Shown in pieces: positions 10,456-26,108 of a DNA stretch of 54,190 nucleotides. Position 1 is the first letter of the stretch. The number at the start of each line of letters is the position of its first letter. The position numbers and the translations under genes were made by a program. The stretch is from Clostridiales bacterium (GTDB lineage Bacteria > Bacillota > Clostridia > Oscillospirales > Oscillospiraceae), in contig JALFVN010000015.1 of the NCBI GenBank assembly GCA_022787565.1, forward strand, positions 1 to 54,190, read 5' to 3'. Below the pieces are notes generated by a model. The model saw only the letters and a list, made by a program, of their open reading frames with translations. It was not told where the DNA came from and searched no databases.

Positions 10456-10472
10456 ATAATTATAAAACCGTG

Positions 10473-10586: not shown

Positions 10587-11405
10587 TTATTTTTCGTATT
10601 CACGGCGATATTTTTTTACCTGTTCCATAAATGCTTTGACACGCAACAGGTCAACGTGATTTTCGAACTTCCCTTCTTCTTTAAATGTAGTACCCACGGT
10701 TGCTCCATCTGATGTCTTTAACTTTTCAATAATATTGTCAGTACGGCAGCCAGTACCGGTAAAAACAGGGACACCGTTTGTAACTTTTCTGATTTGCCCA
10801 ATGACATTTGACTCTGGCTCTTGTCCAGCGTGGAACCCCATAAGAAGGAATGCATCCGGTTTACAGGAAAAAATCGTTGATCTTGCAATTGCGGTAAGCT
10901 CGCGCTTCACAATATATTCATCTGCCTCGTTATTGATGAAATAGAGCAGCTTGCAGTCATCAAGGCCAAGTGCTTTTTTTCTGCGAAGGACGGTTGCTAT
11001 ATCGGGTACGATTATCCCACAGTCGCCGGCATACACGCCGGTAAAAAGACCACGGACAAAATTTGCTGAAACAGCGGCTGCCAGTTCTATGGACGCAAGC
11101 ACATCAGACTCGCAATCAACCCCGAAGGGCACGCTTATTTCGCTCTTCAATTCGCCAATTACTCTCGCCATTGCGCAAGGACCGATCATATCAACTTTGG
11201 TCTGATAAGGCAGAGAGAACTCATTCGAAAAAAGGATGCCGTCGACGCCTCCATCCTGGAGCGCGTGCAGATCCTTTCTGGCCTCTTCTACCGTTTTTTC
11301 CATGCTGTCTCCCTGACGGAAAAGCGGATCCCCAGGAAAGGCATTCAGATGAAGCAGCGCGATTATCGGTTTTTCTACGCCGAACATTTCTCTGCACCAA
11401 TTCAT
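10587..11405 (-). CDS. BtpA/SgcQ family protein
   Basis: The 272-residue protein matches the BtpA/SgcQ family, TIM-barrel proteins of uncertain reaction. SgcQ is encoded in the E. coli sgc carbohydrate operon. Family features are seen at LLHLNAFPGDP (about residues 17-27), FGVDCESD, and the phosphate-binding-like VFTGTGCRTDN (about residues 215-225). It is the last gene of the minus-strand catabolic cluster, 87 bases after the amidohydrolase gene, and has its own strong Shine-Dalgarno GAGGAGA. Its link with sugar operons supports a carbohydrate role, but the substrate is unknown. Confidence 0.85.
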   Translation of the reverse strand: MNWCREMFGVEKPIIALLHLNAFPGDPLFRQGDSMEKTVEEARKDLHALQDGGVDGILFSNEFSLPYQTKVDMIGPCAMARVIGELKSEISVPFGVDCESDVLASIELAAAVSANFVRGLFTGVYAGDCGIIVPDIATVLRRKKALGLDDCKLLYFINNEADEYIVKRELTAIARSTIFSCKPDAFLLMGFHAGQEPESNVIGQIRKVTNGVPVFTGTGCRTDNIIEKLKTSDGATVGTTFKEEGKFENHVDLLRVKAFMEQVKKYRREYEK

Positions 11406-11492
11406 AATCTTGTCTCCTCTTTTACATGCATACGCATGGTTTTATTTCGGGCCTTTCAGCTTCATTCCCGCCGGCTGAGAGGTCCTTTTTGT

Positions 11493-13115
11493 TCAGGCTT
11501 CATACACGATTTTTCCGTCCATCATGGTAAGAAGAACTCTGCACTGCGGAATTTGCCCGGGAGGAACGCGAAAAAGATCACGGTCAAGAACGATCAAATC
11601 CGCAAATTTACCCGGGCTGAGTGTGCCAATTTCCTTCTCTCTGTTTGTGGAGTATGCTCCTCCATAAGTATAGGCCCGAAGAGTCTCTCCGATCGTGACG
11701 GCTTCCTCTGGATTTATCCCCGTCGGTTTTCCGTCATATCCTACTCTTGTTACCGCGTAAAAGATGGATGCAAAAGGATCATAATCAACGACCGGATAAT
11801 CTGTACCGAATGCCAATGTAGCTCCTGCATCCAGAAAAGATCGGAACGGCCACTCCCACCGGCATCTCGCTTCCCCTATACGACTGATTTTTTCATTATT
11901 TTCAAGGGGCAGATGCCGCGGCTGCATGGAGGGCACGATATTCATTTTTGCAAAGCGTGGTATATCATCAGGATGAATGTTTTCAATATGCTCTATGGCA
12001 TTTCTAAGTTTACTCGTATCATTGACTTCTGCTGATTTTTCAAAGCAGTCAAGTGCAAGCTGCACCGAACCATCCGCAATACAATGCAAACGCACGCCAA
12101 ATCCGTGACGGTTTGCTGAAAGAACCGCTTTTTCATAAAACTCTCTCGGATTCAACGTAGCTCCCCGTGTTTCGGGCTTGTCCGCATACGGTTCAAGAAG
12201 GAAGCCGGTATAGGTAGATGTGACCCCATCCACCATTCCTTTTGCGCCGATCACACAAAGCCGTTCAGAATGAAAACGCCGGCAGAGTTGATGCAATTCC
12301 CGCTGCTCTTCATCATCCTTCAATCCGGGATAAAGATATATGCGCATTGTAAGATCCCCGCTTTTTTCAATACGTTCCAGCGCGTCATAATTCATTCCGG
12401 GCAGAACTCCGGACATTTCACAGAGACTTGTTATGCCAAAACGGTTCATATCTTTTATGAGTTTTCGCTCGACTTCTTCGTCAATTTCCGCATCAGGCTG
12501 ATTCACCATGGCAGCTCCGAAATGAAACCAGGCATTTTCTCGCAGTACGCCGCTCGGTGAACCATCGGGAAGCTTAACGACATCATTGGTATACTCGGGT
12601 AAGGACGGATCAAAGCCGTAGTTTTCAGTAAGTTCTTTCAATGCTTTGCTGTTTACCCAACCGGTATGAGCATCTGCGGCAGCTAAATACACCGGTTTAT
12701 CCGGTACGGCATTATCCAACGTAAATTTTGTTGGCAGAGCCGCGTCACCCCAGCACGCGGGAAACCAACCTTGTCCAATAATACGCTTCAGATCTGGATG
12801 CTTTTGGGCAAAGTTATGCACCATTTCCGCACATTCTTGCTCGGATTTTGAGTCAAACAGATCATTGAGAAAATACGAGCTGGAGAAAAGCGCACCAGCG
12901 GGAAAATGCGCATGGGCCTCTACGAAGCCAGGCATAATCAGGCGATCGCCATAATCACGGATCTCTGTGTTGGAACAAATAAAGGCATCAAGCTCTGCCC
13001 TGGTACCCACAGACAGGATCCTGTTCGCTTTTATTGCTACTCCACCTGAAAATGTATTCTCATTTTCGGCAGTAAATATGGAGTCAGAATACAAAACATA
13101 ATCTGCTTTATTCAT
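11493..13115 (-). CDS. YtcJ-type amidohydrolase (cluster copy)
   Basis: This 540-residue metal-dependent hydrolase is of the amidohydrolase_3 family. The His-x-His pair is in EAHAHF (about residues 64-69). Later ligands are seen in LHCIADGS, AIEHIENI and the Asp of FGTDYPVVDYDP (about residue 446). It is related to the protein at 2558-4150 but clearly diverged. It lies 27 bases after the NhaC-type transporter gene, which suggests that the imported compound carries an amide or similar bond that is hydrolysed first. The exact substrate is not inferable from sequence. Confidence 0.85.
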   Translation of the reverse strand: MNKADYVLYSDSIFTAENENTFSGGVAIKANRILSVGTRAELDAFICSNTEIRDYGDRLIMPGFVEAHAHFPAGALFSSSYFLNDLFDSKSEQECAEMVHNFAQKHPDLKRIIGQGWFPACWGDAALPTKFTLDNAVPDKPVYLAAADAHTGWVNSKALKELTENYGFDPSLPEYTNDVVKLPDGSPSGVLRENAWFHFGAAMVNQPDAEIDEEVERKLIKDMNRFGITSLCEMSGVLPGMNYDALERIEKSGDLTMRIYLYPGLKDDEEQRELHQLCRRFHSERLCVIGAKGMVDGVTSTYTGFLLEPYADKPETRGATLNPREFYEKAVLSANRHGFGVRLHCIADGSVQLALDCFEKSAEVNDTSKLRNAIEHIENIHPDDIPRFAKMNIVPSMQPRHLPLENNEKISRIGEARCRWEWPFRSFLDAGATLAFGTDYPVVDYDPFASIFYAVTRVGYDGKPTGINPEEAVTIGETLRAYTYGGAYSTNREKEIGTLSPGKFADLIVLDRDLFRVPPGQIPQCRVLLTMMDGKIVYEA

Positions 13116-13142
13116 TTTTACCTCACAATTTTCCCTATCACG

Positions 13143-14522
13143 TTACATCTGCTGTATAAAACCAGCAATAAGAAATGCTGCAATCGTCAGAAAATATGAT
13201 ACAAGCGCATACGGGAGCGTTGCTTTTGTCTGATAAATTGGCTTAATATCCACCGCTCTTGAAGCAATTAAGACCGCATCGCCTGCGACATAGGTTGTAC
13301 TGCCTGCTGTTGCAGCACAGACGAGAGCCATACACGATAAAAGAGGATCGATGCCAAGGGCCTTCGCAATAGGTACAACAATCGGCATAAAGAGCATTGA
13401 ACCATCCCAGAAGCCGCCGGCAGAAAAGGTGTATGCAGCGCAGAAAGCAAAAACAAGGGCCGGAAAAGTAAAGGAAGCATTTTCAAAAACGGGTGTTATC
13501 ACAGCAACAATGAATTCAGCAAGGCCTGTGGCTTTATTGATCTCAACAAGCCCCAAAGCCACAGCAATCACGCAGCAAACCTGAACATTTCCAGCAATTC
13601 CTTCAAAAGCAGCATCGAAGATTTTCCAGATACTAAGCTTCCTGCTGACAAGCAGCATTAGGGCTGTCACGAAAATTGCTCCCAAACAGCCTACAAGAAC
13701 ATCATTCGTTATGATGGTTAAGGCTGTAATAACAATCATCGGTATGAGAAAAAATATTGGATTGGCCTTTTCCTGACTGCCCGGGCTTTCCGGGTCTGCC
13801 TTGATTTCTTTCTCATCCGCGCTGCGCTCCGCTGTACATACGATCCCTGTTCCTTTTGCATATTGGTCATCTTTTTTACTTATTCCCAAAAGCGGAAAGA
13901 CACCAAAAATAACAAGCAGGCATATGATCAGACTGATCCATGCGTAAAACAAATACGGTATACCCGCAAGATATGCCCCGAATCCACTGCCGTTCACAAC
14001 GATTCCATAGTCTTCAAATAACCCGCTGTAAAACACCGCCCATGTTGAAATCGGGATCAGAACACATACCGGTGCCGCTGTGCAGTTAACAACAAAGCCG
14101 AATAGAGTACGCGGTACCTTATGCCTGTCGCAAATACGCTTCATAGAAGCCGCCACTGCCATGTTGTTGAGATAATCGTCAACACAAATGATCCAGCCAA
14201 GCAGATAGGTCAGGAGCAAAGCTTTCTTTCTTGAGTTTGCAAATTTCCCCAGCCAGTGCGCAAAATATAGGGCGTAATCCGATACGATAAGCAGCCTTAT
14301 CAGTATTCCAAACAAAGCCAGCAGCATAAAAAGATATCCCACAGTACCGCCCATAAACGCCAGTTGTATTTTCTCTATCCATACGGCAGGAAAATTAATG
14401 CCGCCGATAAGTATTGCACCAACCAACGAAGCGGCCGTTAGCGCCAGCAAAGTTCTTCTGGTCGTAAAAACCAGCACAAGCAAAACAATGATCGGAAGCA
14501 GCGACAACACACCAAGATTCAT
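13143..14522 (-). CDS. NhaC-family Na+/H+ antiporter-like transporter 1
   Basis: The 459-residue protein has about 11-12 membrane helices. It carries the paired-domain features of NhaC (Na+/H+ antiporter) proteins, such as DDYLNNMAVAASMKRICDRHKVPR (about residues 115-138) and the second-half segment SAGGFWDGSMLFMPIVVPIAKALG. Members of this group also exchange small organic anions or amines. Sitting in a catabolic operon without any ABC or PTS genes, it is likely a substrate carrier. A hydrophilic loop of about 45 charged residues lies near residue 230. A 10-bp tandem repeat lies just upstream of its ribosome binding site. Confidence 0.85.
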   Translation of the reverse strand: MNLGVLSLLPIIVLLVLVFTTRRTLLALTAASLVGAILIGGINFPAVWIEKIQLAFMGGTVGYLFMLLALFGILIRLLIVSDYALYFAHWLGKFANSRKKALLLTYLLGWIICVDDYLNNMAVAASMKRICDRHKVPRTLFGFVVNCTAAPVCVLIPISTWAVFYSGLFEDYGIVVNGSGFGAYLAGIPYLFYAWISLIICLLVIFGVFPLLGISKKDDQYAKGTGIVCTAERSADEKEIKADPESPGSQEKANPIFFLIPMIVITALTIITNDVLVGCLGAIFVTALMLLVSRKLSIWKIFDAAFEGIAGNVQVCCVIAVALGLVEINKATGLAEFIVAVITPVFENASFTFPALVFAFCAAYTFSAGGFWDGSMLFMPIVVPIAKALGIDPLLSCMALVCAATAGSTTYVAGDAVLIASRAVDIKPIYQTKATLPYALVSYFLTIAAFLIAGFIQQM

Positions 14523-14540
14523 TTAACAACCCCTCTGTCA

Positions 14541-14576
14541 TCTTTTTAAGTCTTTTTAAGTCTTTTTAAGTCTTTA
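14541..14576 (-). repeat. 10-bp tandem repeat upstream of nhaC-1
   Basis: TCTTTTTAAG is repeated three times without error (14541-14570), followed by a partial fourth unit. It ends 19 bases before the nhaC-1 ATG and leaves the GAGGGG ribosome binding site intact. On the coding strand it reads CTTAAAAAGA, so it gives an A-rich leader. Confidence 0.95.
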
Positions 14577-14592
14577 TTGGTAGAATTCTTTT

Positions 14593-15384
14593 TCAAATCA
14601 GGTAAAAATGCTTCATCGCGTGGAAAACACCTTCTTCTTCTACGGTAAGCGTACACCAGTCTGCTGCGCATTTGACTTCCTCCGGCGAATCCCCCATTGC
14701 GATGCTTACATCCACGCTCTTCAACATTTCAAGATCATTTTGACTGTCACCTATTGCGTAACTTCGCATCCCATTGAATTCCGGAAGTGAGAGTACAAGT
14801 GAGATCCCACTTGCTTTATTTACCCCGTGAAGCCTCGTCTGTCCGTTTTGCGGAGAATACTCAACAAGATCTGAATGCTCTTCAATCAATGTTTTAAGAT
14901 TCCCCAGAGAATCCACGCTTTTATACTCCATATCAAGCGAAGAAATGTGGGCCAAAACCTCATTTCTGTACAGATCGTCAAGCCTACGCACAACGCCGGT
15001 TTCAAGCTGAGAGGGTACCATGTACTCAGTACGCAACACCTCATTTTTTCCCAGGATGAGCGCCGGTATCTTTTGATCAATAAGGGCTTTAACTGTTTTC
15101 AGAAGCATGTCACGCGGGATAAAACGATGCCTCAACTCATGATTGCCTACACAGACGATGGCGCCCATGCAGGAGATAACGCCGTCAAAGCCAAGGGAGT
15201 AGATGTCTTTGGATATATCTGCCGGCGACCTTCCCGTACACAGGAAAAGCTTATGTCCGCCTTTATGCAGCTGGGCAAAGCACTCCCTTGTCTTTAATGT
15301 TACTGTTTCTTCATACCGGCACAGCGTCCCGTCGATATCAAAAAAAATGGCCGAAGGCGGTGCCATATCATGATAATTTTCCAT
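14593..15384 (-). CDS. HAD-superfamily hydrolase, Cof/IIB type
   Basis: This protein of about 263 residues is a HAD phosphatase of the Cof-like IIB group. Motif I is FFDIDGTLC (Asp nucleophile near residue 15), motif II is LFLCTGR, and motif IV is AIGDSQNDLEML near the C-terminus. It probably dephosphorylates a sugar phosphate. The chosen ATG (15384) overlaps the end of the FGGY kinase gene by 17 bases and follows GAGGT; an ATG at 15366 is possible. The open frame extends further upstream, but that part lies inside the kinase gene. Confidence 0.85.
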   Translation of the reverse strand: MENYHDMAPPSAIFFDIDGTLCRYEETVTLKTRECFAQLHKGGHKLFLCTGRSPADISKDIYSLGFDGVISCMGAIVCVGNHELRHRFIPRDMLLKTVKALIDQKIPALILGKNEVLRTEYMVPSQLETGVVRRLDDLYRNEVLAHISSLDMEYKSVDSLGNLKTLIEEHSDLVEYSPQNGQTRLHGVNKASGISLVLSLPEFNGMRSYAIGDSQNDLEMLKSVDVSIAMGDSPEEVKCAADWCTLTVEEEGVFHAMKHFYLI

Positions 15385-16912
15385 TATAGTCTGATACCTC
15401 GTGCATGATAGGCTTAAGCGCCGAATAAAGCCTGCCATACCATTCCAGATATTGCTTATATCTTTCATGATTATCCATATCCGGGTTAAACTCGCTCCCG
15501 CTTCGTATATAGCTTTCCAGCGAGGCACAGCTTCCGATCGCGCCGGCACCAACCGCCGCGATCATGGCATCACCATAGGATGATCCTATGGTAACTGCGG
15601 CAGTTTTAACCGTAAAGCCAGTCACATCCGATATGATCTGAAGCCACTCGTGGTTTTGTGCACCGCCACCCACACACATGAAATTTCTGATCTCCAGTCC
15701 GTGCTCATTCAGAATTTGAATATGCTGGGCTATGGAATAGGCCACCCCTTCAAGCGCCGCCTTATACAAATGTGCGCGAGTGTGGCTTTGGAGCAGGCCA
15801 AAAAACACGCCTCTCGCTTTTGGATCATTGATTGGTGTGCGCTCTCCGGCAAAATACGGTAAAACAATGATACCATCGGAGCCGGCAGGTATTTCCCTGG
15901 CGCACTGGGCCATTCTGGCAAAGGCGTTTTCCCCTGTTTTCGCTTGCGCGGCGAGGTAATCCACAAATATATTGTCACGTAGCCATTTTGTCAGCGCGCC
16001 TGCCGTGTTTGTCCCGCCATCCTGACAAAAGGTTCCCGGGATAAGATAGTCCTCTGACCATATCCGCTCATCATCGATCATACGGTCGCTGCAATATATA
16101 ATATAGCAAGTCGATCCCAGCTGCACCATCAGATCCCCGGGCTGCAGAACCCCTGTGCTTATGGCTTCTGCGCCTGAGTCATCCGTCCCCGTAACAACGA
16201 GAGTCCCCGGTAAGAGCCCGGTTTGAGACGCCGCAATCTCAGTAACCGTACCAACCACTTCATGCATTTCATGGCCCTCGGCAAGCTGATCGGCCCTGCA
16301 ATACAGCTCTTCGGCGATTCCGGCGTCAACAGACAAGTCCGTACGGTAACAAGGCGCGAAAGAAGAGACCGCAAGATAACGGTCGATGACAAAGCGACCT
16401 GTCAGTTTAGCGGTAAGGTAAGAAGAGGCCGTAAGAAATTTATATGCTTTTTCATGTATCTCCGGCTCGTTGTTTTTTATCCAGAGAATCTTTGGCATAC
16501 AATCAGACGAGCAGAGCGGTCTATCCCCAAACAAGGAATACATTCTTTCCGGTCCGTAGTATTCCGTAATCTGATCGATTTCCCTGGTTGCTCTTGCGTC
16601 AATGCCGTAGAGAATCGCTTTGCGAAGCGGAACGCAATTTTCATCAACAGGAACAACATCTGCACTGAGCGCGCTTGCGCCTACGGCTTTGATCATTTCA
16701 GGATGTATCCCAGAGCGCCCGATCAGTTCATTTGACAGCTTGCAGAAATCGCCCCACCACACTTTTTCTGCATCATGTTCATAATAATTCGGTTTTGGAT
16801 TTTCCAACTCATGTGAGGTCACAGCCGAGCAGATGACCTGGCAGCAGCTATCGATGATGACCCCCTTGGACTCGTTTGTCCCGATATCGATTCCCATAAA
16901 AAAATCTGGCAT
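15368..16912 (-). CDS. FGGY-family carbohydrate kinase (xylulokinase-like)
   Basis: The 514-residue protein is an ATP-dependent sugar kinase of the FGGY fold. The N-terminal phosphate loop GIDIGTNESKGVIID (about residues 7-21) and the C-terminal CVGGGAQNHEWLQIISDVTG (about residues 416-435) are characteristic. The middle motif VVTGTDDSGAEAISTGV supplies the catalytic Asp region. It resembles xylulokinases, but substrate specificity within FGGY cannot be read from sequence. It is the third sugar kinase in the cluster, besides two of PfkB type, and has GGAGG seven bases before ATG. Confidence 0.88.
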   Translation of the reverse strand: MPDFFMGIDIGTNESKGVIIDSCCQVICSAVTSHELENPKPNYYEHDAEKVWWGDFCKLSNELIGRSGIHPEMIKAVGASALSADVVPVDENCVPLRKAILYGIDARATREIDQITEYYGPERMYSLFGDRPLCSSDCMPKILWIKNNEPEIHEKAYKFLTASSYLTAKLTGRFVIDRYLAVSSFAPCYRTDLSVDAGIAEELYCRADQLAEGHEMHEVVGTVTEIAASQTGLLPGTLVVTGTDDSGAEAISTGVLQPGDLMVQLGSTCYIIYCSDRMIDDERIWSEDYLIPGTFCQDGGTNTAGALTKWLRDNIFVDYLAAQAKTGENAFARMAQCAREIPAGSDGIIVLPYFAGERTPINDPKARGVFFGLLQSHTRAHLYKAALEGVAYSIAQHIQILNEHGLEIRNFMCVGGGAQNHEWLQIISDVTGFTVKTAAVTIGSSYGDAMIAAVGAGAIGSCASLESYIRSGSEFNPDMDNHERYKQYLEWYGRLYSALKPIMHEVSDYNGKLS

Positions 16913-16947
16913 TTCCGAACCTCCTTTTCTGCATGCTCAAAGCCGGT

Positions 16948-18048
16948 TCACAGAGTGAGGATGCTATTTATTTTTTGCTCCATATCAGCCGCCTCTTTCG
17001 CTTCAAGTTTTCCAAAACGATAGTGAAATGCCGTCTCTTGTCCGCCGCAAAGGCACTTTTGCAGCCCATGATTGACCGCGTAGGCTCGCCCCATATGGTT
17101 TCCGGTCGTTGGCAGAGCAAATCCGCAGGACATTTCGTCACCGGTCCAACTAAACCAACGCAGTCCATTGTTCAAAATTTTTGTTTCAAAACCTACATAA
17201 CATGCGCTCGCATCCGGGCGGATCATCATAGAGTGTGCCCATCCGCTTTCATCAGCGTTATAGTGGATACAAACGCATAGTTCGGGATTGTAGCACTGGT
17301 CCCTGAAGCTGAGAACATCGCCCAGATCCGGCTTTTCCGCAAGGCTTAAAGTATACTCACGCAAGCGCTTTGAATCTGCATCATTGAGCATATCTCCAGA
17401 GTCCGTCTCGAATACCTCAATATGCGCTTTGTCTTTAGGTGCGCTGTAAACCAGTCTTGCCCCGTCAACAGGCCTCCAGTTGATATGGGACATATACATA
17501 TAGCGAAAAAGCGTACTGCGCAAATTTCTGATATTGCATGTCATGTCAAGCAGCTTCTTTCCTGCATGGAGTCTGAGCGCAGGGCAAAAAGTATAGCTTG
17601 TATCAATGGAAAGCTTATACAGGTATTCGCCTTTGACTTCGATGTATTCTCCCTCTTCATCACTTCCGAGAATGATCGAAATGTTCCTGTACCTGGCATG
17701 AGGAAGCTCTCCGTGCATAGGATGCGCATCTTCCTCACTGGGATTTCCCATTGCAGTCAACCCGCAATGAATTAGAAAAGCTCCATAGCTTTCGTCGAAT
17801 ACGTTATCTGTTTCTTCCGGAATCTCAAACATGGATTTCATTGTCATGTCTTCATCGTCAATAAAAAGACGCCATATTTGCTGTCCCTGATATGGCAGCA
17901 GAATATATCTGACCGGGCCATTGCTTATTTCCAGTGCTTCTACTCCCGTTTCATATTTGAAGCATATTGCAGAAAAGCTGCCGCTGCGAAGCAGACACAA
18001 CGGTTTCTCTGAAAACATGGAGCGCTCCAGACTAATCTGTACAGTCAT
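16948..18048 (-). CDS. DUF4432 / aldose-1-epimerase-like protein
   Basis: This protein of about 366 residues resembles DUF4432 proteins, beta-sandwich relatives of aldose 1-epimerases (mutarotases) often found in sugar operons. The histidine-rich segment HPMHGELPHARY (about residues 108-119) corresponds to the galactose-mutarotase-type active-site His. The glycine and tryptophan pattern near LRWFSWTGDE (about residues 311-320) is also typical. The start at 18048 follows AAAGGAGG. It lies downstream of a terminator-like hairpin, so it may be expressed less than the first half of the operon. It probably interconverts sugar anomers or epimers. Confidence 0.8.
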   Translation of the reverse strand: MTVQISLERSMFSEKPLCLLRSGSFSAICFKYETGVEALEISNGPVRYILLPYQGQQIWRLFIDDEDMTMKSMFEIPEETDNVFDESYGAFLIHCGLTAMGNPSEEDAHPMHGELPHARYRNISIILGSDEEGEYIEVKGEYLYKLSIDTSYTFCPALRLHAGKKLLDMTCNIRNLRSTLFRYMYMSHINWRPVDGARLVYSAPKDKAHIEVFETDSGDMLNDADSKRLREYTLSLAEKPDLGDVLSFRDQCYNPELCVCIHYNADESGWAHSMMIRPDASACYVGFETKILNNGLRWFSWTGDEMSCGFALPTTGNHMGRAYAVNHGLQKCLCGGQETAFHYRFGKLEAKEAADMEQKINSILTL

Positions 18049-18075
18049 TTTTCCTCCTTTTTCCTGATAAAGTGT

Positions 18076-18109
18076 AAAAACGGCGCAACGCAAGAAAAGC
18101 GCTGCGCCG
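18076..18109 (-). terminator. Terminator inside the catabolic cluster, after nhaC-2
   Basis: On the minus strand a GC-rich stem (18103-18109 with 18081-18087, extended inside by three pairs) is followed directly by TTTTT (18080-18076). It separates the first six genes from the last six and could attenuate the distal half. Confidence 0.75.
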
Positions 18110-18145
18110 CTCAATCCAACAATTGATGTTTCTCTTTTTACTTCA

Positions 18146-19657
18146 TCACATAATCACACCGCAAACGGTAAACAGGATAGCGGATATGATCCAACATACA
18201 ATCATTATGCTGTACTGGGCAAAAGTCTGATCATAGAGATCAATAGCGCCGGTTGATGCGCAGGCCAGCATACCGCCGTCCGAGGAGAATGCGACTTCAT
18301 ATCCCCACAGACCAGCGCTGACGAGAGCCGCAATAGCAATGGGAACAGATGCGCCTACATTAACAGCTACGCCCACAACGATGGGCATTGCAATGAGATA
18401 AAGCGTGTAGTTAAAGGTAACAAGCATTTCTGTGAGAGAGAACGCGATGAAGATGATCAGGGGCAGGAACGCCGGGGAAACTACGCCGCTGACGAGATCC
18501 ACAACGTATTCTACAAAGCCCAGGTCTGCCAGCCCATTGCAGATGACAAGGCCAAAAGTACACATCATACACATTGTGGTCATTGAGGCGAGACCTTCTG
18601 TAATCGAGTTTGCTGCATCGATGGGCTGGAATACGCCGGTAATCACATAATACACGAAAGTGGTGATCAGTCCCCAGGTCAGACCATAGGTCATATCCCA
18701 TTCAAAAATAAATCCGAAGACAATTATCGCCAGAACCGGAACGCAGAAATGGCTGAGATTACATTTGGCTCTGGGTTCAGGAGCGGCTTCTGGCTCTTCC
18801 GGCTCCTGGAGAACGCCGTCAATGTATCGTGCTTTTGCCTCGGGTATTACTGAACCGCCGTCTTCAACCCTTTTATACGCATTTTTCATCTTGCCAAAGG
18901 GTTTGATCAGACCGCCAATGATAAGCCAGCACATCAGCAGGCAAACTATCGGGAAAAAGCAGAAGGGCAGACATTTGGTAATAAAGTACATCAGGCCGGA
19001 GCTCTCCCCGATAATATCCAGATCCCACATTTCGATGACTGCCCCGATATAGACAGCCCAGGCGCCGATAGGGAGAATTGTGGAAAGGTTGCAGGAGCTT
19101 GCGCGAAGAACATATGCTGTCATTTCACGGGGAACCTTGTATTCATCCGTAAGCGGAGTAATAATGCTTCCGACAACAAGAGTACTGGTATAGTCGTCAA
19201 CAGCAAGAGGAATACACATAAGAGAGGCTGCAAACAGTGCAAATTTACTTGTTTTGGCCTTCTTCGCAACCCAACGTGCAAAGTAAGTACCCGATCCGCT
19301 GATTTTAAACATCATCGTGACAATACCGCCCAGCATGAAGAGCATGAGCACCCACCATCCGTCCGGATCAGTGACATTGGCTATTATGGATTCGACAAAG
19401 CCTCCCACAAAGCCAGCGCGATATTTCAGGAACACAGTCAACATAGCCGTCCAGAAAAAGCCTTCAACTATTCTGTGCGTTGCAACAATGAAAACAAATA
19501 TTGCAACAGGCGGTATAAAGGTCCAGGCCATGTAGTTTTCGCCCTCTTCCAGGACAGGGCAGAACAGCGCTATGACTGCGAAGCAGATGGCGACGAATGA
19601 ATAACTGATGAGATTTCTTTTCATCTCGCTTGTCCATTTTTTCGGGGTTTTCTCCAT
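18146..19657 (-). CDS. NhaC-family Na+/H+ antiporter-like transporter 2
   Basis: This 503-residue protein has about 12 membrane helices. It carries the NhaC signature region AVDDYTSTLVVGSIITPLTDEYKVPREMTAYVLR, seen here in part as VDDYTSTL and later DEYKVPRE (about residues 150-180). It has the same architecture as transporter 1 but is clearly diverged, with a longer N-terminus and a central charged loop around residues 255-290. Two such carriers in one operon suggest two related substrates, or uptake of substrate plus export of a product. It precedes a strong hairpin. Confidence 0.85.
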   Translation of the reverse strand: MEKTPKKWTSEMKRNLISYSFVAICFAVIALFCPVLEEGENYMAWTFIPPVAIFVFIVATHRIVEGFFWTAMLTVFLKYRAGFVGGFVESIIANVTDPDGWWVLMLFMLGGIVTMMFKISGSGTYFARWVAKKAKTSKFALFAASLMCIPLAVDDYTSTLVVGSIITPLTDEYKVPREMTAYVLRASSCNLSTILPIGAWAVYIGAVIEMWDLDIIGESSGLMYFITKCLPFCFFPIVCLLMCWLIIGGLIKPFGKMKNAYKRVEDGGSVIPEAKARYIDGVLQEPEEPEAAPEPRAKCNLSHFCVPVLAIIVFGFIFEWDMTYGLTWGLITTFVYYVITGVFQPIDAANSITEGLASMTTMCMMCTFGLVICNGLADLGFVEYVVDLVSGVVSPAFLPLIIFIAFSLTEMLVTFNYTLYLIAMPIVVGVAVNVGASVPIAIAALVSAGLWGYEVAFSSDGGMLACASTGAIDLYDQTFAQYSIMIVCWIISAILFTVCGVIM

Positions 19658-19696
19658 CTTTTTTTCCTCCTTTTTGCTTGATTTCTTTGTTTATAT

Positions 19697-20527
19697 TTAA
19701 CCCTGCTTTAGCCCGACGTTCTCAAGAGCCTGACGCACAGCTCTGATCGCGCGCTGGTTAAACAGGATCGGTTCCGTACGGTATTCGTCGAAAAGTTCTA
19801 TGGAGCAGTAGCCGTCATAGCCGTAGCTGTCAAGCATACTGAGGACCTCTTCAACAGGGAGCTCACCGTCGCCCAGAATAAGATGATCCTCTACATCTTT
19901 TTTGCAGTCGACAAGATGGACATGCACAAGATCCTTTCCCAGCCGTTCAAAATAGTTGGAAGAAGGCTCTCCAACAGTCAGCGGCGCAGCCAAATCCAGC
20001 ATGGCCTTTACTTTGGGGCTGTTGATTTCCTTAAGCGCCCGGACAACATCGTCAGAACGGATCAGAATATTTCCTTCCCACGGAGTTACTGTTTCAAGAA
20101 TCATGGTAACACCATCCACAGACTCGGAGTAGGCCGCCAGCTCTTTCATATACTTGATGAACTGCGCCCAGTCTTCATCAGTGGTATACTCATAGCTGCA
20201 TTGAAGTGCCGCCATAACCATATACGGGCAATGAATCGCTTTGCATAGATCAATACACTGGCGAAAATACTCCATGCTCTCCTCAATCCATCGCTCATCC
20301 CGCCAAAGCAGACATGCCATGTCGGGTTCAAAAGACACAATTGGAAGCTTGTACTTTGCAGACAGATCGTTTATTTTCTGAATATCCTCAGGCCGCATAT
20401 CCGGTGCGTAAGCATGCGGACGTCCGCCCCATATTTCTATTCCGTCATAGCCAAACTTTGAGGCAATCTCAAAGCTCTTTTCAATCGGCCACCTATGCAG
20501 GCTGTTCGTGAAAAAAGAAATCTTCAT
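19697..20527 (-). CDS. Sugar phosphate isomerase/epimerase family protein
   Basis: The 276-residue protein has the xylose-isomerase-like TIM barrel fold of sugar phosphate isomerases and epimerases such as tagatose 3-epimerase, hydroxypyruvate isomerase and IolE/IolI. Conserved acidic and His ligands for a divalent metal are visible: Glu in MILETVTPWEGN (about residues 141-152), Asp in AMLDLAAP, His-x-His in VHVHLVDCK (about residues 202-210), and Glu in CSIELFDEYR (about residues 247-256). It likely acts on a ketose or its acid. Its start follows GGAGAAAAA. Confidence 0.88.
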   Translation of the reverse strand: MKISFFTNSLHRWPIEKSFEIASKFGYDGIEIWGGRPHAYAPDMRPEDIQKINDLSAKYKLPIVSFEPDMACLLWRDERWIEESMEYFRQCIDLCKAIHCPYMVMAALQCSYEYTTDEDWAQFIKYMKELAAYSESVDGVTMILETVTPWEGNILIRSDDVVRALKEINSPKVKAMLDLAAPLTVGEPSSNYFERLGKDLVHVHLVDCKKDVEDHLILGDGELPVEEVLSMLDSYGYDGYCSIELFDEYRTEPILFNQRAIRAVRQALENVGLKQG

Positions 20528-20579
20528 TTTTTCTCCTTTTCTTTTTATACTGTATCTGCTTCTGCCTTTTCTCGCGGCG

Positions 20580-21527
20580 TTATGGATATCTTTTCAGCAC
20601 CTCGTTCATTTCTTCGATTGTGAGGTAACGTTCGATCGGGCCGTCCTTACTGGGCTTCTGAACAAACCAGGCGCAATACTTGTTTGCATATTCCAGCGCC
20701 TGCTGTACGCTCTTTCCCCATATCAGGCACTGAACAAATACAGCCAGGAAAGCATCTCCTGCGCCGCTCTCATCCACAAGGTCAACCTTAATGCCGCCGA
20801 CCTCACCGCAGCCTCTTTCGCCCCATGCTACAGCGCCGTTTCCGCCGAGCGTGATGATTGTATTTTTTACGCAGAACTTTTTGCACAAAGCTTCCGCCGC
20901 TTCCTTCCAGCTGCAGATCGACCCGGGTTTTGCGCCGAGCAGCAGCTCTGCCTCTCTGGCATTAACCGCAATTGTATTTACAAAAGGCATTTTCTCCACA
21001 TAGTCTGGATCATCGAAAGGACTGAGATTCATAAAAACCTTCATCCCCTCTTCCGCGGCGGCACGCGAGCACTCATATGCCACTTCCTTCGGTATTTCCA
21101 GACCCGTGATAAGGTATTCCGCACCTTTAAGTGCTTTAATGTGGGGCAGTGTCTCTTCCAGCGTCAGGTCAGAGCCAGGAGAGTCAAAATTGATTATCAG
21201 ATTCTCACCATTCTCCGCAATAAGAATCAAGCCCAGGCTGGTCTTTATCCCCTCCTGAAGCCAGAAATGCTCCAGATTCACGCCTGCGTCACGCAGCCAC
21301 TGTTCATTGAGCTCCCCGCCGTCATCCTTGCCGACCTTACCGACGTAGGCGACATCGCCGCCCAGGCGGCCGATCACTATTGCATTATTGACACCTTTGC
21401 CGGAATCTTTCGCGTAACGGAGATTGGTCGGTATGGCTGTTTCACCTTTACGCGGGATGCGCTTAACATCACAATACTGTCCTATCCCAGCGCCGTTCAA
21501 GCAAACAACTTTTGGTATATGTCCCAT
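20580..21527 (-). CDS. PfkB-family carbohydrate kinase 1
   Basis: The 315-residue kinase is of the ribokinase/PfkB family. It has the N-terminal substrate-binding motif DSGKGVNNAIVIGRLGG (about residues 41-57) and the C-terminal DESGAGDAF signature with GAGD at 255-258, where Asp258 is the catalytic base. It is a paralogue of the kinase at 22476-23432. Both begin with an unusual shared segment NG(A/H)G(I/L)G(Q/E)YCDVKRIP. A dapA-like gene lies between them. Its likely role is ATP-dependent phosphorylation of a sugar, sugar acid or amino-sugar derivative. Confidence 0.88.
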   Translation of the reverse strand: MGHIPKVVCLNGAGIGQYCDVKRIPRKGETAIPTNLRYAKDSGKGVNNAIVIGRLGGDVAYVGKVGKDDGGELNEQWLRDAGVNLEHFWLQEGIKTSLGLILIAENGENLIINFDSPGSDLTLEETLPHIKALKGAEYLITGLEIPKEVAYECSRAAAEEGMKVFMNLSPFDDPDYVEKMPFVNTIAVNAREAELLLGAKPGSICSWKEAAEALCKKFCVKNTIITLGGNGAVAWGERGCGEVGGIKVDLVDESGAGDAFLAVFVQCLIWGKSVQQALEYANKYCAWFVQKPSKDGPIERYLTIEEMNEVLKRYP

Positions 21528-21539
21528 TTCTGCCTCCGT

Positions 21540-22454
21540 TCAATATCTCTTTGTGATCCCGAAGTCCTTGACCATCTGGTCAAACTTCTTCAGCTCATCT
21601 TCAGGTATATAAAGCATATGGTCCGGATGACGTGTGCCTTTAACATCAATACATGCCGTATATTTCATTGCGTAGATATACGCAGCAGAATCAGGAAACT
21701 GCTGCATAAAAGTACGCAGCTTGAGCACAATTCGCTGTGCCTGCCATGCTTTTTCATATTCTCCCGCAACAAAATAGTCGTATATGTCTTTCATCTGATC
21801 CAGGAAGGGAACGCTCATAAAGCTGACAGATGCGGAGGCTCCCATTGCCATGTGAGTGAAAAGCGTGGCGTCTGAACCGGAAATGATGCTGAAATCCTCC
21901 TTAAGGTCATCGAGTTCATCAATGCACTTGTTGAGGTGGATGATGTCACGGGTCGCATCCTTATAGCCGCGGAGGTTTGGATATTCGTGCGCAAGGCGCC
22001 CAAGCATCTCAGGCGCTACGAGTTCATTCATCTCGCGGCAGTTAAACAAAATTGTCGGAATATCCGTGGCAGCAAGCTGCGCCGACAGATACTGGTGTGC
22101 CGCTTCCTGTGTCAGGGTATAAAAAGGAGGCAGCGAAATAGATAAGGCTTTCACATCGAGCTTCCGGTATTCCTCAACAAGCCACATCGCGTCATGGAGA
22201 CAATTGGCCAGAACAACCGCAACTACCATGCAGTCTGTTCCTTTTACCGCCTCCTGGGCACATTTAACGACCTCAAGCCGTTCTTCAAGGGAAAGAGAAT
22301 AGGTCTCATCACCAAATCCGTTAACAAAAAGTCCTGATGCTCCGCGCATCGCAAGATTACTAAAAATTTTTGAAGTTGTTCCGAAGTCAATAGATCCATC
22401 AGGATTATAAGAGATCATGGGTTCTGAGATAATGCCATTGAAATATTTTGCCAT
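21540..22454 (-). CDS. DapA-like (dihydrodipicolinate synthase/N-acetylneuraminate lyase family) protein
   Basis: This 304-residue TIM-barrel protein belongs to the class I pyruvate-dependent aldolase group that includes dihydrodipicolinate synthase, KDG aldolase and sialic acid lyase. The Schiff-base lysine is retained as Lys165 in GYKDAT. The usual Tyr of the YN-x-P motif is replaced by Phe137 (LFNCRE), and the usual GTTGE loop reads GFGDE (46-50). Chemistry may therefore differ from classical aldolases. It is flanked by two PfkB kinase genes, so it may split the phosphorylated product of either one. Confidence 0.85.
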   Translation of the reverse strand: MAKYFNGIISEPMISYNPDGSIDFGTTSKIFSNLAMRGASGLFVNGFGDETYSLSLEERLEVVKCAQEAVKGTDCMVVAVVLANCLHDAMWLVEEYRKLDVKALSISLPPFYTLTQEAAHQYLSAQLAATDIPTILFNCREMNELVAPEMLGRLAHEYPNLRGYKDATRDIIHLNKCIDELDDLKEDFSIISGSDATLFTHMAMGASASVSFMSVPFLDQMKDIYDYFVAGEYEKAWQAQRIVLKLRTFMQQFPDSAAYIYAMKYTACIDVKGTRHPDHMLYIPEDELKKFDQMVKDFGITKRY

Positions 22455-22475
22455 AATTATTCCTTCTTTCTTTAT

Positions 22476-23432
22476 TTAAAACAGAAGCTCTTCTTTACCA
22501 AGTGACTTGAATATTTCCGGAATTTTTTCTTTCCAAGGATAATGCTCAAGAGATCCCTGTTTCGTCACCGTATATGCGGCATAAACATTTGCCCACTCCA
22601 TGGATTCGCGGAGTGTCTTTCCCTTGCTCAGGCAAAAGGTAACAGCCCCAAGGAACCCGTCACCCGCACCGGTTTCATCGACCATATTTACTTTCACGCT
22701 CGGGCAGAAGAACGTCCCTTCTTCAGTAACTGCACCTGAGCCCATACCGCCAAGCGTTATGATGACGTTGGAACATTTATATTTTTCCCGTAAGGCCATG
22801 CCCAGCTCTTCCCAGCTCATATTTACTTCCGGGTCCAGTTCAAGCAGTTCATAGGACTCTCCCTCGTTTACAACAAGGTAATCTACATAGGGCAGTTCTT
22901 CGATTTTCATGCCTACGCGCAGCGGGCTTGGATTCAGTAATGTCACCATCCCCAACTCTTTTCCCGTTTTGCAGGCTTGTAAGCCGGAATTGACATCCTG
23001 CGCGAAACCGGAGCTGACAAACTTTGCTCCTGCCATTTTGCGCATACAACGATCCACTTCGTCAGGCTGCACACTGTAGAGATCGTTATCAAAATCCAAG
23101 AGCATATTTTCTCCGTTTTCTGCAATGATGCACAGGCCGAGACATGATTCAATTGACGGATCAAGCCAATAGTAAGTGGTGTCCACATTAGACTCGCCCA
23201 ACCACTTGTACCCAAGTTCTCCTGCCAGATCAACGCCGCATTTTCCGATGAAAGCTACATTTCCGCCCAAACGTCCTATAGCGCATGCAGTATTCGTGCC
23301 CTTTCCAGCGTCCATCTCAAAGCGGCGGTTGTATGCAGTGCATGTTTCACCGGGGTTAGGGATACGTTTGACATCGCAATACTCCCCTAAGCCATGCCCG
23401 TTGCATACAATAATATCCGGTATTTTCGCCAT
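22476..23432 (-). CDS. PfkB-family carbohydrate kinase 2
   Basis: This 318-residue ribokinase-family enzyme has the DAGKGTNTACAIGRLGG substrate loop (about residues 42-58) and a DETGAGDGF signature with GAGD at 255-258. Its TAATG junction with the preceding NagB-like gene overlaps by one base, so the two are coupled. It resembles kinase 1 over its whole length, which suggests duplication within the cluster. The two may act on different intermediates, or form a heteromer. No substrate-specific residues could be assigned. Confidence 0.88.
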   Translation of the reverse strand: MAKIPDIIVCNGHGLGEYCDVKRIPNPGETCTAYNRRFEMDAGKGTNTACAIGRLGGNVAFIGKCGVDLAGELGYKWLGESNVDTTYYWLDPSIESCLGLCIIAENGENMLLDFDNDLYSVQPDEVDRCMRKMAGAKFVSSGFAQDVNSGLQACKTGKELGMVTLLNPSPLRVGMKIEELPYVDYLVVNEGESYELLELDPEVNMSWEELGMALREKYKCSNVIITLGGMGSGAVTEEGTFFCPSVKVNMVDETGAGDGFLGAVTFCLSKGKTLRESMEWANVYAAYTVTKQGSLEHYPWKEKIPEIFKSLGKEELLF

Positions 23433-24328
23433 TATATTACCTCCTTGATAATTCCGTCCGTTACAGGCGGCTGTGCAGTAGCGGGATCGGTAAAGACCAG
23501 CACCTCTGGAACATATTCAGGAAACAGTGTTGCAGGGTATTCGACTGTCGGTTCGCTGAACATCAAAACACGAATAGATGTCTGCTTCCAACTCCCTGTA
23601 GTTACCATAAAGACAGCCTTTTTTGCCGTAAGCATGGATTTAAAGCCAATGGTAATTGCCATGGGGGGGACGATTTGGACAAAACCGCCAATATCCCTCT
23701 CACTCAAAGAAATCAACGTGTCTTCATTAAGATGAACGATTCTGGTTTTTGACTGCGCATATTCTTCGACAGATATACGGTAATAGGGAGAGTTAGGTGC
23801 TTCACAAAAGGCAACAAGACCTTTATAACCAAGACCTGCGTATACTGTGTCCACGCCGCCCAATTCTTCAACTTTCCTGTCCAGATAATCGATATCGTTT
23901 ATATCCGGCCAGATTCGCTGATCCTCCGGCACATTGAGTTCCTCATCAATAATTCCGTAAAAATCATGGAGCATATTCGCCTTCAAACTGAAGTAGTTGT
24001 TGATTTCAGGGTAGGGCCTCCCTTGCCAGTCGAGAAAATCATCCATGTGAAAGACCCATACATTCTTTAAACTGATCCGTTCCTTATTGACTCTTTGCGC
24101 AAAATATTTATACTGTCCCATAGGGCCGCAGGGCAAAACCCATTTTGTCGGTTTGCCCTCGGCATTGTTTTTGATGACCTCCTCTGCCATCATATTTCCG
24201 ACGCGCATAGATACTTCCGCTTTCTCCATGATTTTCACTTTGATCTTTGATTCAGGATGGTTTTCAAGTTTTTCAGCGGGAATGCTGCACCATTTGATCA
24301 TTTTTTCCAGGTCCATGTTTGATGACAT
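23432..24328 (-). CDS. NagB-like (glucosamine-6-phosphate deaminase family) protein with altered active site
   Basis: The 298-residue protein aligns with glucosamine-6-phosphate isomerase/deaminase over its length: FHMDDF (93-98), then GLGYKGLVAFCEAP (165-178), then MAITIGFKSMLTAKK (223-237), with Lys248 after Thr-Gly-Ser-Trp. In E. coli NagB the second motif is GVGNDGHIAFNEP, where Asp141 and His143 drive ring opening. Here these become Lys169 and Leu171, while Glu176 (Glu148) and Asp96 (Asp72) remain. It is probably not a standard deaminase. It is the first gene of the cluster and is transcribed away from the GntR genes. Confidence 0.82.
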   Translation of the reverse strand: MSSNMDLEKMIKWCSIPAEKLENHPESKIKVKIMEKAEVSMRVGNMMAEEVIKNNAEGKPTKWVLPCGPMGQYKYFAQRVNKERISLKNVWVFHMDDFLDWQGRPYPEINNYFSLKANMLHDFYGIIDEELNVPEDQRIWPDINDIDYLDRKVEELGGVDTVYAGLGYKGLVAFCEAPNSPYYRISVEEYAQSKTRIVHLNEDTLISLSERDIGGFVQIVPPMAITIGFKSMLTAKKAVFMVTTGSWKQTSIRVLMFSEPTVEYPATLFPEYVPEVLVFTDPATAQPPVTDGIIKEVI

Positions 24329-24393
24329 AATCTTCCTCCCTTAACAAAAATAGTGATATTGCCTCTCCCCCTCCTCAGAGGGATCTGTGATGA

Positions 24394-24422
24394 CACATAA
24401 GGATACTGGCAAAAATCAGCAA
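24394..24422 (-). promoter_or_regulatory. Predicted promoter of the catabolic operon
   Basis: On the minus strand TTGCTG (24422-24417) and TATGTG (24399-24394) are separated by 17 bases. The 18-bp palindrome at 24422-24439 abuts the -35 element. Transcription should start about 60 bases before the NagB-like ATG, leaving a leader with a strong GGGAGG site. The rest of the 326-base intergenic stretch is AT-rich and holds no gene. Confidence 0.5.
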
Positions 24423-24439
24423 TATGTTACATAACATAT
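24422..24439. promoter_or_regulatory. Palindromic operator candidate for the GntR pair
   Basis: ATATGTTA and TAACATAT form perfect 8-bp arms with a 2-base centre. GntR/HutC-family repressors bind palindromes of this size. Its overlap with the -35 of the divergent operon suggests repression by blocking RNA polymerase. Confidence 0.6.
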
Positions 24440-24598
24440 ATATCACTTAGCGTATTTATATTACCACATTCTTTTTTTAGCGTCAATAATGATCATCACT
24501 GCGGCGTGTATTTTGTCAAATGTGCTAATTTCGTGTCCCGATTTTTAGAATAATTCACGGTTAAAATCTTGTTAATTCAGCAGGCGTTTGATTTTGTG

Positions 24599-24627: not shown

Positions 24628-24654
24628 ATTCAAGAAAAGCAGAGGAGGTATAAG

Positions 24655-25383
24655 ATGAGTATACCACTTTACGAACAACTCGCAGATACATTGCGTGATA
24701 AGATGTATGCTGGAGAATATACTTTTGGGGACCGTCTTCCGTCTGAGCGCGCGCTGGCATCTGAGTTTGGAATAAGCCATCTCACTGTGCGCAGGGCTCT
24801 CACTATGCTTGAGGAGGAGGGCCTGATTGTCCGTATACAAGGTAAAGGAACATTTGTCAAATCAACGCGTCTTGCCGTAAATATGCAGGCTATGGGCAGC
24901 TTTTCAAGCGTACTTAAAGGGCAAAACACCAATGTAACCAGCAAGGTTTTATATAGTGGGCTGCGCAGGGCACGTTCAAAGTTTTCAAGATTGTTTGGAA
25001 TCAGTGAGGACAGTCAGGTGTTTGAATGTATTAAGCTCAAAAGCAGTAACGGTATACCTTTGGCTATCGAGCAGACAGCCGTCCCCCTGGAATATGTTCC
25101 TGATATTGCTGACTATGATTACAGCGTTTATTCCCTTTATGACGTATACCGGAAAAATAAAATAACCATCGTTCGTGAAGATCAGTATCTTGAGATCGTT
25201 AAGGTATATAACCCTATTGCATCCATCCTCGGTAAGGAAGACGGCGACGATGTTTTTCTTCTGAAATCTTCTGCCTTTGACAGTCTTGGCCGTTTAGTGG
25301 AAAGTACGAAGATGTATGACAATGATGAACGCCTTATTTTTTATCTTTCAGGCGTCAGTTGTGCACAGGAGGCAAATAAGTGA
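24655..25383 (+). CDS. GntR-family (HutC/UTRA) transcriptional regulator 1
   Basis: This 242-residue regulator has an N-terminal winged helix-turn-helix of the GntR type (about residues 1-70, with LPSERALASEFGISHLTVRRALTMLEEEGLI) and a C-terminal UTRA ligand-binding domain (about residues 85-235). UTRA domains usually bind a sugar phosphate or related metabolite. It diverges from the catabolic operon and very likely represses it until the inducer appears. Its stop overlaps the GTG start of a second regulator by four bases. Confidence 0.92.
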   Translation: MSIPLYEQLADTLRDKMYAGEYTFGDRLPSERALASEFGISHLTVRRALTMLEEEGLIVRIQGKGTFVKSTRLAVNMQAMGSFSSVLKGQNTNVTSKVLYSGLRRARSKFSRLFGISEDSQVFECIKLKSSNGIPLAIEQTAVPLEYVPDIADYDYSVYSLYDVYRKNKITIVREDQYLEIVKVYNPIASILGKEDGDDVFLLKSSAFDSLGRLVESTKMYDNDERLIFYLSGVSCAQEANK

Positions 25384-26108
25384 GCAAATACAGTCAGTTT
25401 GTCAGTGACGATATCCGGGAGGATATAGAAGAATATATCTATGTCCATAATCTGAAGCCAGGCGACGCTCTTCCAAGCGAACGTACCTTGTGTGAAATTC
25501 TGGGCTGTAATCGTGTTTCACTGCGCCGTGCGCTTGCCCAGCTCGCCGGAGATGGTGTAATTTTCGCCGTTCAGGGCAGCGGAACATTTTTGGCCCCTCC
25601 TAAATTTATTGAAGAGTCCTCGAACTTTATCTCTTTCTCATCTTCATGGCAGACTGTCGGCCACAGGGTAACCAGCCGTCAGCTCAGTTTTCTCGAATTG
25701 GACGCCAACCTGAAAATTTCCAGAATGCTTGGTATTCCTCTGGGGACAAAAGTTTTTGAGTTAAAAAGACTTCGTCTTATCGACGACGTTCTTATTTCCA
25801 TCGAGACATCCTATCTGGAAAAAACAAAATGCCCTACCCTGATATCATACAATTTTGATGGGGACGCTTCCCTTTACAAGGTATTGGAGAAGAATTTTGG
25901 CCTTCATATTACCCAATTACAGCAAAATATCAGAACAACAAAAATTAGAAGCGATGAGGCGGAACTGCTCTGTGTAGAAAAAGGCACTGCCGCGTTTTAT
26001 ATTTCGGCTGTTGGCCTGGCCGATGACAATGAAATCATTGAGCACAGCCTGACGGTCTCACGCGCCGACAGATATGCCATGCACTATCGGGCCGGATCGC
26101 CCTACTAA
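25380..26108 (+). CDS. GntR-family (HutC/UTRA) transcriptional regulator 2
   Basis: This protein, also 242 residues, has the same architecture: a GntR helix-turn-helix (about 1-72, LPSERTLCEILGCNRVSLRRALAQLAGDGVI) and a UTRA domain. It starts with GTG inside the stop of regulator 1 (GTGA), preceded by AGGAGG, so the two are co-translated. Sequence similarity to regulator 1 is moderate, with different UTRA halves. The two may form heterodimers, or respond to two different intermediates and control the two halves of the operon. It ends before a strong terminator. Confidence 0.92.
   Translation: MSKYSQFVSDDIREDIEEYIYVHNLKPGDALPSERTLCEILGCNRVSLRRALAQLAGDGVIFAVQGSGTFLAPPKFIEESSNFISFSSSWQTVGHRVTSRQLSFLELDANLKISRMLGIPLGTKVFELKRLRLIDDVLISIETSYLEKTKCPTLISYNFDGDASLYKVLEKNFGLHITQLQQNIRTTKIRSDEAELLCVEKGTAAFYISAVGLADDNEIIEHSLTVSRADRYAMHYRAGSPY

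Follow-up and report, generated by a model that had tools for sequence, protein, structure and literature searches.

A candidate ketosamine catabolic cluster with a NagB-like protein in place of a recognisable deglycase, carried on an apparent island of a clostridial genome

Glycated amino acids arise when food is heated (PMC9749803), and the bacterial routes for their use that serve as comparison below end in a dedicated deglycase. In Escherichia coli, fructoselysine and psicoselysine are handled by frlABCD-frlR; in Salmonella, fructoselysine and glucoselysine are assigned to gfrABCDEF, which PMC12675984 presents as a mannose-family phosphotransferase system (PTS) with two deglycases and a proposed phosphorylation followed by deglycation; and in Intestinimonas AF211, the fructoselysine cluster is described in PMC4697335 as following a kinase-then-deglycation scheme, with an ATP-binding cassette (ABC) transporter and a fructoseamine deglycase. 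Here we compare with these systems a twelve-gene cluster found in contig JALFVN010000015.1 of a Clostridiales bacterium (assembly GCA_022787565.1), a stretch of 54,190 nucleotides that was analysed as a whole and is called the window below. Our reading is that the cluster would be a catabolic operon for a ketosamine, namely an Amadori-type glycated amine or amino acid, or its C3 epimer; substrate and reactions are what we infer from sequence comparison, and we put the probability of this reading at roughly 0.55.

The cluster consists of 12 open reading frames (ORFs) on the minus strand, from 10587 to 24328, and faces two divergent regulator genes on the plus strand. Protein families were called by Pfam and NCBIfam models, with Pfam matches reported at E<=0.001. 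In the order from 24328 down to 10587, followed by the regulators, the genes are:

23432 to 24328, minus strand: NagB-like protein of 298 amino acids, candidate ketosamine-6-phosphate deglycase (NCBIfam nagB TIGR00502, 68.5 bits, cut-off 236.9)
22476 to 23432, minus strand: PfkB-family sugar kinase 1, PfkB1 (PF00294, 134.5 bits)
21540 to 22454, minus strand: DapA/DHDPS-family protein, candidate Schiff-base lyase or aldolase (PF00701)
20580 to 21527, minus strand: PfkB-family sugar kinase 2, PfkB2 (PF00294, 145.4 bits; 40% identity to kinase 1)
19697 to 20527, minus strand: FrlC-like sugar isomerase/epimerase (AP_endonuc_2; NF007360 fructoselysine 3-epimerase, 245.1 bits)
18146 to 19657, minus strand: NhaC/ion-transporter-superfamily carrier 1, NhaC1 (PF03553, 37.5 bits)
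16948 to 18114, minus strand: DUF4432 protein (PF14486, 60.3 bits; likely ATG near 18048)
15368 to 16912, minus strand: FGGY-family sugar kinase (PF00370/PF02782)
14593 to 15552, minus strand: Cof-type HAD phosphatase (PF08282, Hydrolase_3, 137.9 bits; likely start near 15384)
13143 to 14522, minus strand: NhaC/DctM-type carrier 2, NhaC2 (PF03553, 37.3 bits; PF06808, 27.9 bits)
11493 to 13115, minus strand: Amidohydro_3-family protein (PF07969, 269.9 bits)
10587 to 11405, minus strand: BtpA/SgcQ-family protein (PF03437, 215.6 bits)
24655 to 25383, plus strand: GntR/UTRA regulator 1, GntR1 (PF00392 and PF07702; 26% identity to E. coli FrlR)
25380 to 26108, plus strand: GntR/UTRA regulator 2, GntR2 (PF00392 and PF07702)

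The listed starts of the HAD gene (TTG at 15552) and of the DUF4432 gene (TTG at 18114) probably are over-called, judging from the translations. The original prediction had counted twelve same-strand genes with three sugar kinases (two PfkB and one FGGY), two NhaC-type carriers and divergent twin GntR regulators and had noted the lack of ABC and PTS genes; ORFs and family models bear out the former, and none of the twelve was recognised as an ABC or PTS gene. Both carriers are weak matches to PF03553 (Na_H_antiporter), lying above its 23-bit cut-off; entry by Na+/H+-type antiport, as in the earlier scheme, would be a tentative assignment.

With E. coli frl the cluster shares a putative FrlC-like epimerase, a PfkB-family kinase and a GntR/UTRA regulator, the last being a common family and a weak discriminator, and a FrlA-like permease is found in relatives of the cluster. 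Unlike E. coli frl, the cluster has no recognised FrlB or FrlA, and it adds NagB-like, DapA-like, DUF4432, HAD, second PfkB, FGGY, BtpA and amidohydrolase proteins as well as the NhaC carriers. The order of phosphorylation and deglycation proposed here resembles that in Salmonella and Intestinimonas, whereas neither the PTS of the former nor the ABC transporter and fructoseamine deglycase of the latter were recognised in the cluster. The cluster probably follows a frl-like pathway in outline. We do not count it in the frl family, since searches for a recognisable FrlB, for FrlA within the cluster and for a kinase of FrlD grade found none of them. An ordinary frl operon was rejected, no FrlB being recognised in the cluster's own genome. 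No paper describing this gene set was found by title and abstract among open-licence papers, in agreement with the earlier statement that no described pathway with it is known.

In the pathway that we propose, the substrate would enter by a NhaC-type carrier, the FrlC-like enzyme would epimerise C3 and so turn a psicosyl into a fructosyl form, and a PfkB kinase would phosphorylate the sugar, at O6 by analogy. The NagB-like enzyme, acting on a substrate that is already open or is opened differently, would then yield a hexose 6-phosphate together with the free amine or amino acid, standing in for the SIS-domain deglycase FrlB. The DapA-like, DUF4432 and HAD proteins and the second kinase may process an epimer or a cleavage product, while FGGY, BtpA, the amidohydrolase and carrier 2 would be accessory and may serve a sister substrate. 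The earlier scheme names no amine-releasing step, and the NagB-like protein is our candidate for it. Among the three substrate guesses made earlier, the Amadori-type compound is favoured, because FrlA-like permeases occur in the clade of the window's NagB-like protein, FrlC- and FrlD-like genes are neighbours in Coriobacteriales, and the window isomerase itself is FrlC-like; the other two, a charged and an N-acylated sugar, are less favoured.

As for the isomerase, it matches NF007360 over residues 1-270, nearly its full length, with 245.1 bits, the next family reaching 47.5 bits. Its identity to E. coli FrlC is 36%, and it has retained the E-D-H-E residues, which we take to be the metal ligands of this family. 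Relatives of the cluster were sought by scanning genome contigs with an alignment of four NagB-like proteins, which gave 70 loci. Within the stretches examined (a match covering at least half of the query length at E<=1e-15; four of the eight clade contigs are shorter than 9 kb), a relative of E. coli FrlA is present in 7/8 loci of the window's NagB clade, against 3/62 of the others (27-33% identity). FrlC relatives occur in 5/8 and 0/62, relatives of the window DapA in 4/8 and 0/62, relatives of the window DUF4432 in 3/8 and 0/62, and FrlB and FrlD relatives in one of the eight clade loci each. The permease of Helcococcus sueciensis (locus L022) scores 452 bits with the FrlA model (cut-off 800, next family 161) and is 49% identical to E. 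coli FrlA, and that of locus L023 scores 335 bits with 38% identity. The clade locus without a FrlA-like permease is L021, which carries NhaC1; since the carrier in Helcococcus and Coriobacteriales is a FrlA-like amino-acid permease, NhaC1 may be a carrier swap.

The NagB-like protein merits closer attention. NagB chemistry releases ammonia from an amino-sugar phosphate. No Pfam model matches the window protein at E<=0.001, and among NCBIfam models only those for NagB recognise it, all under their cut-offs. Aligned with E. coli NagB, which is glucosamine-6-phosphate deaminase, it belongs to the same family and keeps D72, E148, R172 and K208 (as D96, E176, R211 and K248), whereas K169 and L171 stand in place of D141 and H143; an ordinary NagB was rejected on these two replacements. 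In PMC4008608, His143 is treated as catalytic and as contacting Glu148 in the R structure, and a figure legend in PMC3009595 likewise lists it as involved in catalysis. We suppose that ring opening has become dispensable or takes place in another way, which would suit an open-chain ketosamine. Asp141 is replaced in 70/70 relatives and His143 is changed to Leu in 8/70, and these eight are the loci with a FrlA-like permease or, in L021, with the core module. A 71-row tree places the nine rows with Leu, the window's among them, together on one side of a branch that has 100/100 support, and the clade spans Bacillota, Spirochaetota and Actinomycetota. In the wider subfamily, a D141-less NagB and a PfkB gene of an Acidobacterium metagenome-assembled genome (MAG) are located downstream of a GH2 exo-beta-D-glucosaminidase-like gene, at a distance of two genes (L031:3099-5930 and 9980-11912), a context that hints at amino-sugar use there.

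No FrlB-type deglycase was recognised in the window's own genome, where the sole match to the FrlB model (39.4 bits) lies in a 615-codon ORF that we read as GlmS from its size. At E<=1e-5 the model has no match in the Sphaerochaeta (G711) or Helcococcus (G712) genome, and it has 3 to 5 matches in each of the genomes G713-G716, some of them GlmS-sized. If the Helcococcus operon, with its FrlA- and FrlC-like genes, is a ketosamine operon, another enzyme would have to release the amine, and NagB chemistry comes closest to this.

The DapA-like protein shows a comparable alteration. The Schiff-base lysine, aligned with 3hij and 1xky, is kept in the window protein and five relatives (6/6), as in the DapA/KDG aldolase family to which they belong, whereas both Thr of the GTTGE motif are replaced in all six and the Tyr has become Phe in the window and L021 only. 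We take this motif to hold the keto-acid carboxylate, the Tyr to be catalytic and the Lys to form the Schiff base. These proteins probably act on something other than an alpha-keto acid, and the reaction may be a C3-C4 cut, an amine elimination or something else. Combining both enzymes, a tentative and rather doubtful extension of the ketosamine reading would be a non-SIS pathway in which the NagB-fold enzyme without D141 and H143 deglycates 6-phosphorylated fructosyl or psicosyl amino acids, and the DapA-fold enzyme, its keto-acid site lost, binds the carbonyl of the ketosamine as a Schiff base and cuts or deaminates the ketosamine, the deoxysugar or dicarbonyl product being phosphorylated by FGGY. 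The DUF4432 protein is presumably mutarotase-like by fold kinship.

A core of the cluster is co-conserved in several phyla, as far as gene neighbourhoods tell, and the earlier view of a catabolic cluster is supported. The closest locus, L021 of a Sphaerochaeta MAG, repeats the order of the first nine genes except for FGGY, which it lacks; its eight genes have identities of 84% (NagB), 80% (PfkB1), 89% (DapA), 71% (PfkB2), 95% (isomerase), 80% (NhaC1), 60% (DUF4432) and 62% (HAD); its divergent regulators, in the same arrangement as in the window, are 62% (GntR1) and 55% (GntR2) identical. Because L021 repeats it at 55-95% identity, the arrangement is not due to chance. In Helcococcus, DapA, DUF4432, isomerase, PfkB, permease, NagB and PfkB genes follow each other on one strand, and a PfkB gene comes after NagB in all seven loci from L021 to L027. 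Coriobacteriales loci have the order permease-NagB-PfkB; in L109 a DapA-DUF4432-isomerase-PfkB set is divergent from it, in L106, which shares its contig with L023 and overlaps it, DapA and PfkB stand on the divergent side, in G715 the set DapA-DUF4432-isomerase-PfkB lies on a separate contig (L104), and the contig of L033 ends in NagB. Relatives of DUF4432 were accordingly found in L021, L022, L109 and L104. Where the contig reaches (L023, L025, L109), a SIS-ROK-SIS set precedes the FrlA-like permease, that is GlmS-like isomerase domains around a ROK kinase (L023:4934-8105, L109:5722-8824), and this set is possibly a parallel deglycase route.

The Coriobacteriales modules lie near FrlC relatives (52-54% identity) and FrlD relatives (35-46%). 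In G713 and G714, a second stretch has the order FGGY2-BtpA-FGGY-GntR1-GntR2, with an esterase gene after BtpA in L106, then relatives of FrlC (53-54%) and FrlD (35-36%), and a further FrlD relative (46%) is divergent. The best FGGY relatives of G713, G714 and G715 are 49-50% identical and all three lie in such frl-linked stretches. The best GntR2 relatives (35-42%, in G713-G716) lie beside FGGY, those of G713-G715 again in frl-linked stretches, and for BtpA, G713 and G714 have their best relatives (51-52%) in frl-linked loci, while no other window or frl gene was found in the examined part of the contig that bears the best BtpA relative of G715. In Olsenella (L114), two FrlD-like (32-33%), a FrlB-like (30%), a FrlC-like (25%) and an isomerase-like (30%) gene occur within 15 kb, together with an amidohydrolase (28%), FrlR (32%), BtpA (45%) and a cut-off FGGY (48%). 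UPF0047, Amidohydro_2 and esterase-family genes without obvious role were also seen, interspersed with FrlC/FrlD/FGGY/BtpA-like ones in a Coriobacteriales-type genome (L106:8152-9440 and 4110-4904). The amidohydrolase had been proposed earlier to open the substrate first, and this step is not supported: the gene is absent from the L021 locus as examined, and the relatives that it has in frl-linked loci reach no more than 27-28% identity, which is weak because the family is large.

Several points weigh against the ketosamine reading. The isomerase stays below the NF007360 cut-off (245 of 305), and the two PfkB kinases score 165 and 171 bits as ribokinase against 62 and 37 bits as fructoselysine 6-kinase (NF007321, cut-off 247), so neither attains FrlD grade. 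The window cluster has no FrlA-like carrier, the search for FrlA having covered the cluster within its own genome. The loss of D141 is general in the NagB subfamily (70/70), whose members mostly lack a frl-like neighbour within the examined stretch; the loci of the clade are not independent and fit one origin, and with the Leu rows on one branch the counts given above rest on one inherited change and not on nine independent ones. Not one of the 14 control genomes, among them E. coli, gave a score above the cut-off of the FrlB model, and in G711 and G712 the model matched no SIS protein, GlmS included, so it could miss distant SIS enzymes. The Coriobacteriales loci carry SIS proteins besides the NagB-like one, so that NagB need not be the deglycase there. 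Finally, the L021 contig comes from a MAG, where mis-binning is possible.

Other explanations have to be weighed against these facts. It is possible, though we think it rather unlikely, that two modules with different substrates stand side by side, one being the eight-gene core from NagB to HAD without FGGY, and the other FGGY, NhaC2, the amidohydrolase and BtpA. That L021 has the core only, that the best FGGY (33%) and BtpA (45%) relatives of the Sphaerochaeta genome lie about 6 kb apart on another contig, and that a terminator-like hairpin follows NhaC1 would all fit such a division, but in G713 and G714 FGGY, BtpA and both GntR genes lie on the NagB/DapA contig, within about 25 kb, beside the FrlC and FrlD relatives. 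Less probable still is a route for a rare sugar or sugar acid, with the isomerase acting as an ordinary ketose 3-epimerase, the kinases yielding a ketose phosphate and the DapA-like protein serving as an aldolase of the 2-keto-3-deoxy sugar-acid kind: the retained Schiff-base lysine and the ribokinase-like and xylulokinase-like appearance of the kinases agree with it, whereas the lost Thr pair, given the role we assume for the motif, and the FrlA-, FrlC-, FrlD- and FrlR-like genes surrounding the relatives speak against it. An amino-sugar route, with the NagB-like protein deaminating ordinary or N-substituted glucosamine 6-phosphate, is very improbable, since against the family kinship and the NagB-PfkB pairs of Acidobacteria, with the glucosaminidase-like gene near that of L031, stand the replaced D141 and catalytic H143, the score far below the nagB cut-off and the lack of any nagA match near cut-off among the 12 genes (amidohydrolase 19.3 bits, cut-off 225.65).

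The cluster favoured here as a ketosamine operon appears to be an acquired island, as the genes on both sides adjoin without it in two congeners and its guanine-cytosine (GC) content is lower than that of the flanks (0.47 for the cluster and 0.449 for the GntR genes, compared with 0.528 and 0.55). In the window, about 16.5 kb comprising the cluster, the GntR pair and a gene for a 267-residue protein separate a Spx/ArsC-like gene from orf10186, and phosphate Pst ABC genes lie to the left of the island. In the congener contig L124, RNase J, Spx/ArsC-like and orf10186 matches follow with about 90 nucleotides between the last two, and L123 has the same three flank genes with about 0.8 kb between Spx/ArsC-like and orf10186; these are two of eight congener contigs examined, the other six lacking both flanks together (in some a different order after RNase J, or the contig end). 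The additional gene of the inserted stretch is:

26185 to 26988, minus strand: 267-residue protein (no Pfam or NCBIfam match)

This protein has no tblastn match in L123 or L124, the two empty sites, and is unrelated to the product of the gene in the same place in L021. The host genome has 2.63 Mb in 77 contigs, of which the window is contig C71, with a completeness of 99.14% and a contamination of 4.04%. The RNase J next to the island shows 73-87% identity in 12/15 congeners, with no match in the other three (68, 65 and 71% complete), so the window contig fits the genus. No NagB-like match above 32% identity was found among 24 congeners, several being incomplete MAGs. PfkB1 at E<=1e-40 was found in its own genome only among 295 of the order, the DapA-like protein at E<=1e-45 in its own genome only among 398 of the phylum, and the NagB-like protein at E<=1e-40 in four of the 398, own included; in the long stretches of G229 and G411 no other window gene is near NagB, and in G312 only a PfkB gene adjoins it, on a short contig. 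As far as searched, a phage or plasmid element was rejected: megablast of the cluster against plasmids gave no match, a single-protein scan of viral contigs gave no NagB relative, and at E<=1e-30 plasmid records held no DapA relative and NagB relatives in three records, at 32-35% identity.

With respect to expression, the spacing from the listed coordinates is operon-like. NagB and PfkB1 overlap by one nucleotide, the following gaps down to NhaC1 are 21 (PfkB1-DapA), 12, 52 and 39 nucleotides, NhaC1 and DUF4432 are 31 nucleotides apart (97 from the likely DUF4432 ATG), DUF4432 and FGGY 35, FGGY and HAD overlap as listed, and gaps of 70, 27 and 87 nucleotides lead down to BtpA. The terminator-like hairpin at 18110-18085 lies between NhaC1 and the likely DUF4432 start, so the downstream half of the cluster may be expressed less, with 26 such sites in the region against 15.2 (standard deviation 4.6) in shuffles. 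Upstream of NagB, by 94-158 nucleotides, a consensus scan and a palindrome search gave:

24422 to 24486, minus strand: putative operon promoter TTGACG-17-TAATAT (24486-24458), then a palindrome (24439-24422)

The promoter scan is weak, with 26 promoter-like sites in the region against 24.7 by chance. The palindrome is a possible GntR operator; in L021, the palindromes listed are in mid-gap or towards GntR1, with none before NagB, and so give no support to a shared operator.

To sum up, if a NagB-fold deglycase is true, it would widen the range of anaerobes that are recognisable as users of glycated amino acids, and it would allow a clear test of the way in which a family of deaminases shifts to another reaction. 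For these DapA-like and DUF4432 proteins, moreover, the cluster provides a context in which they can be tested.

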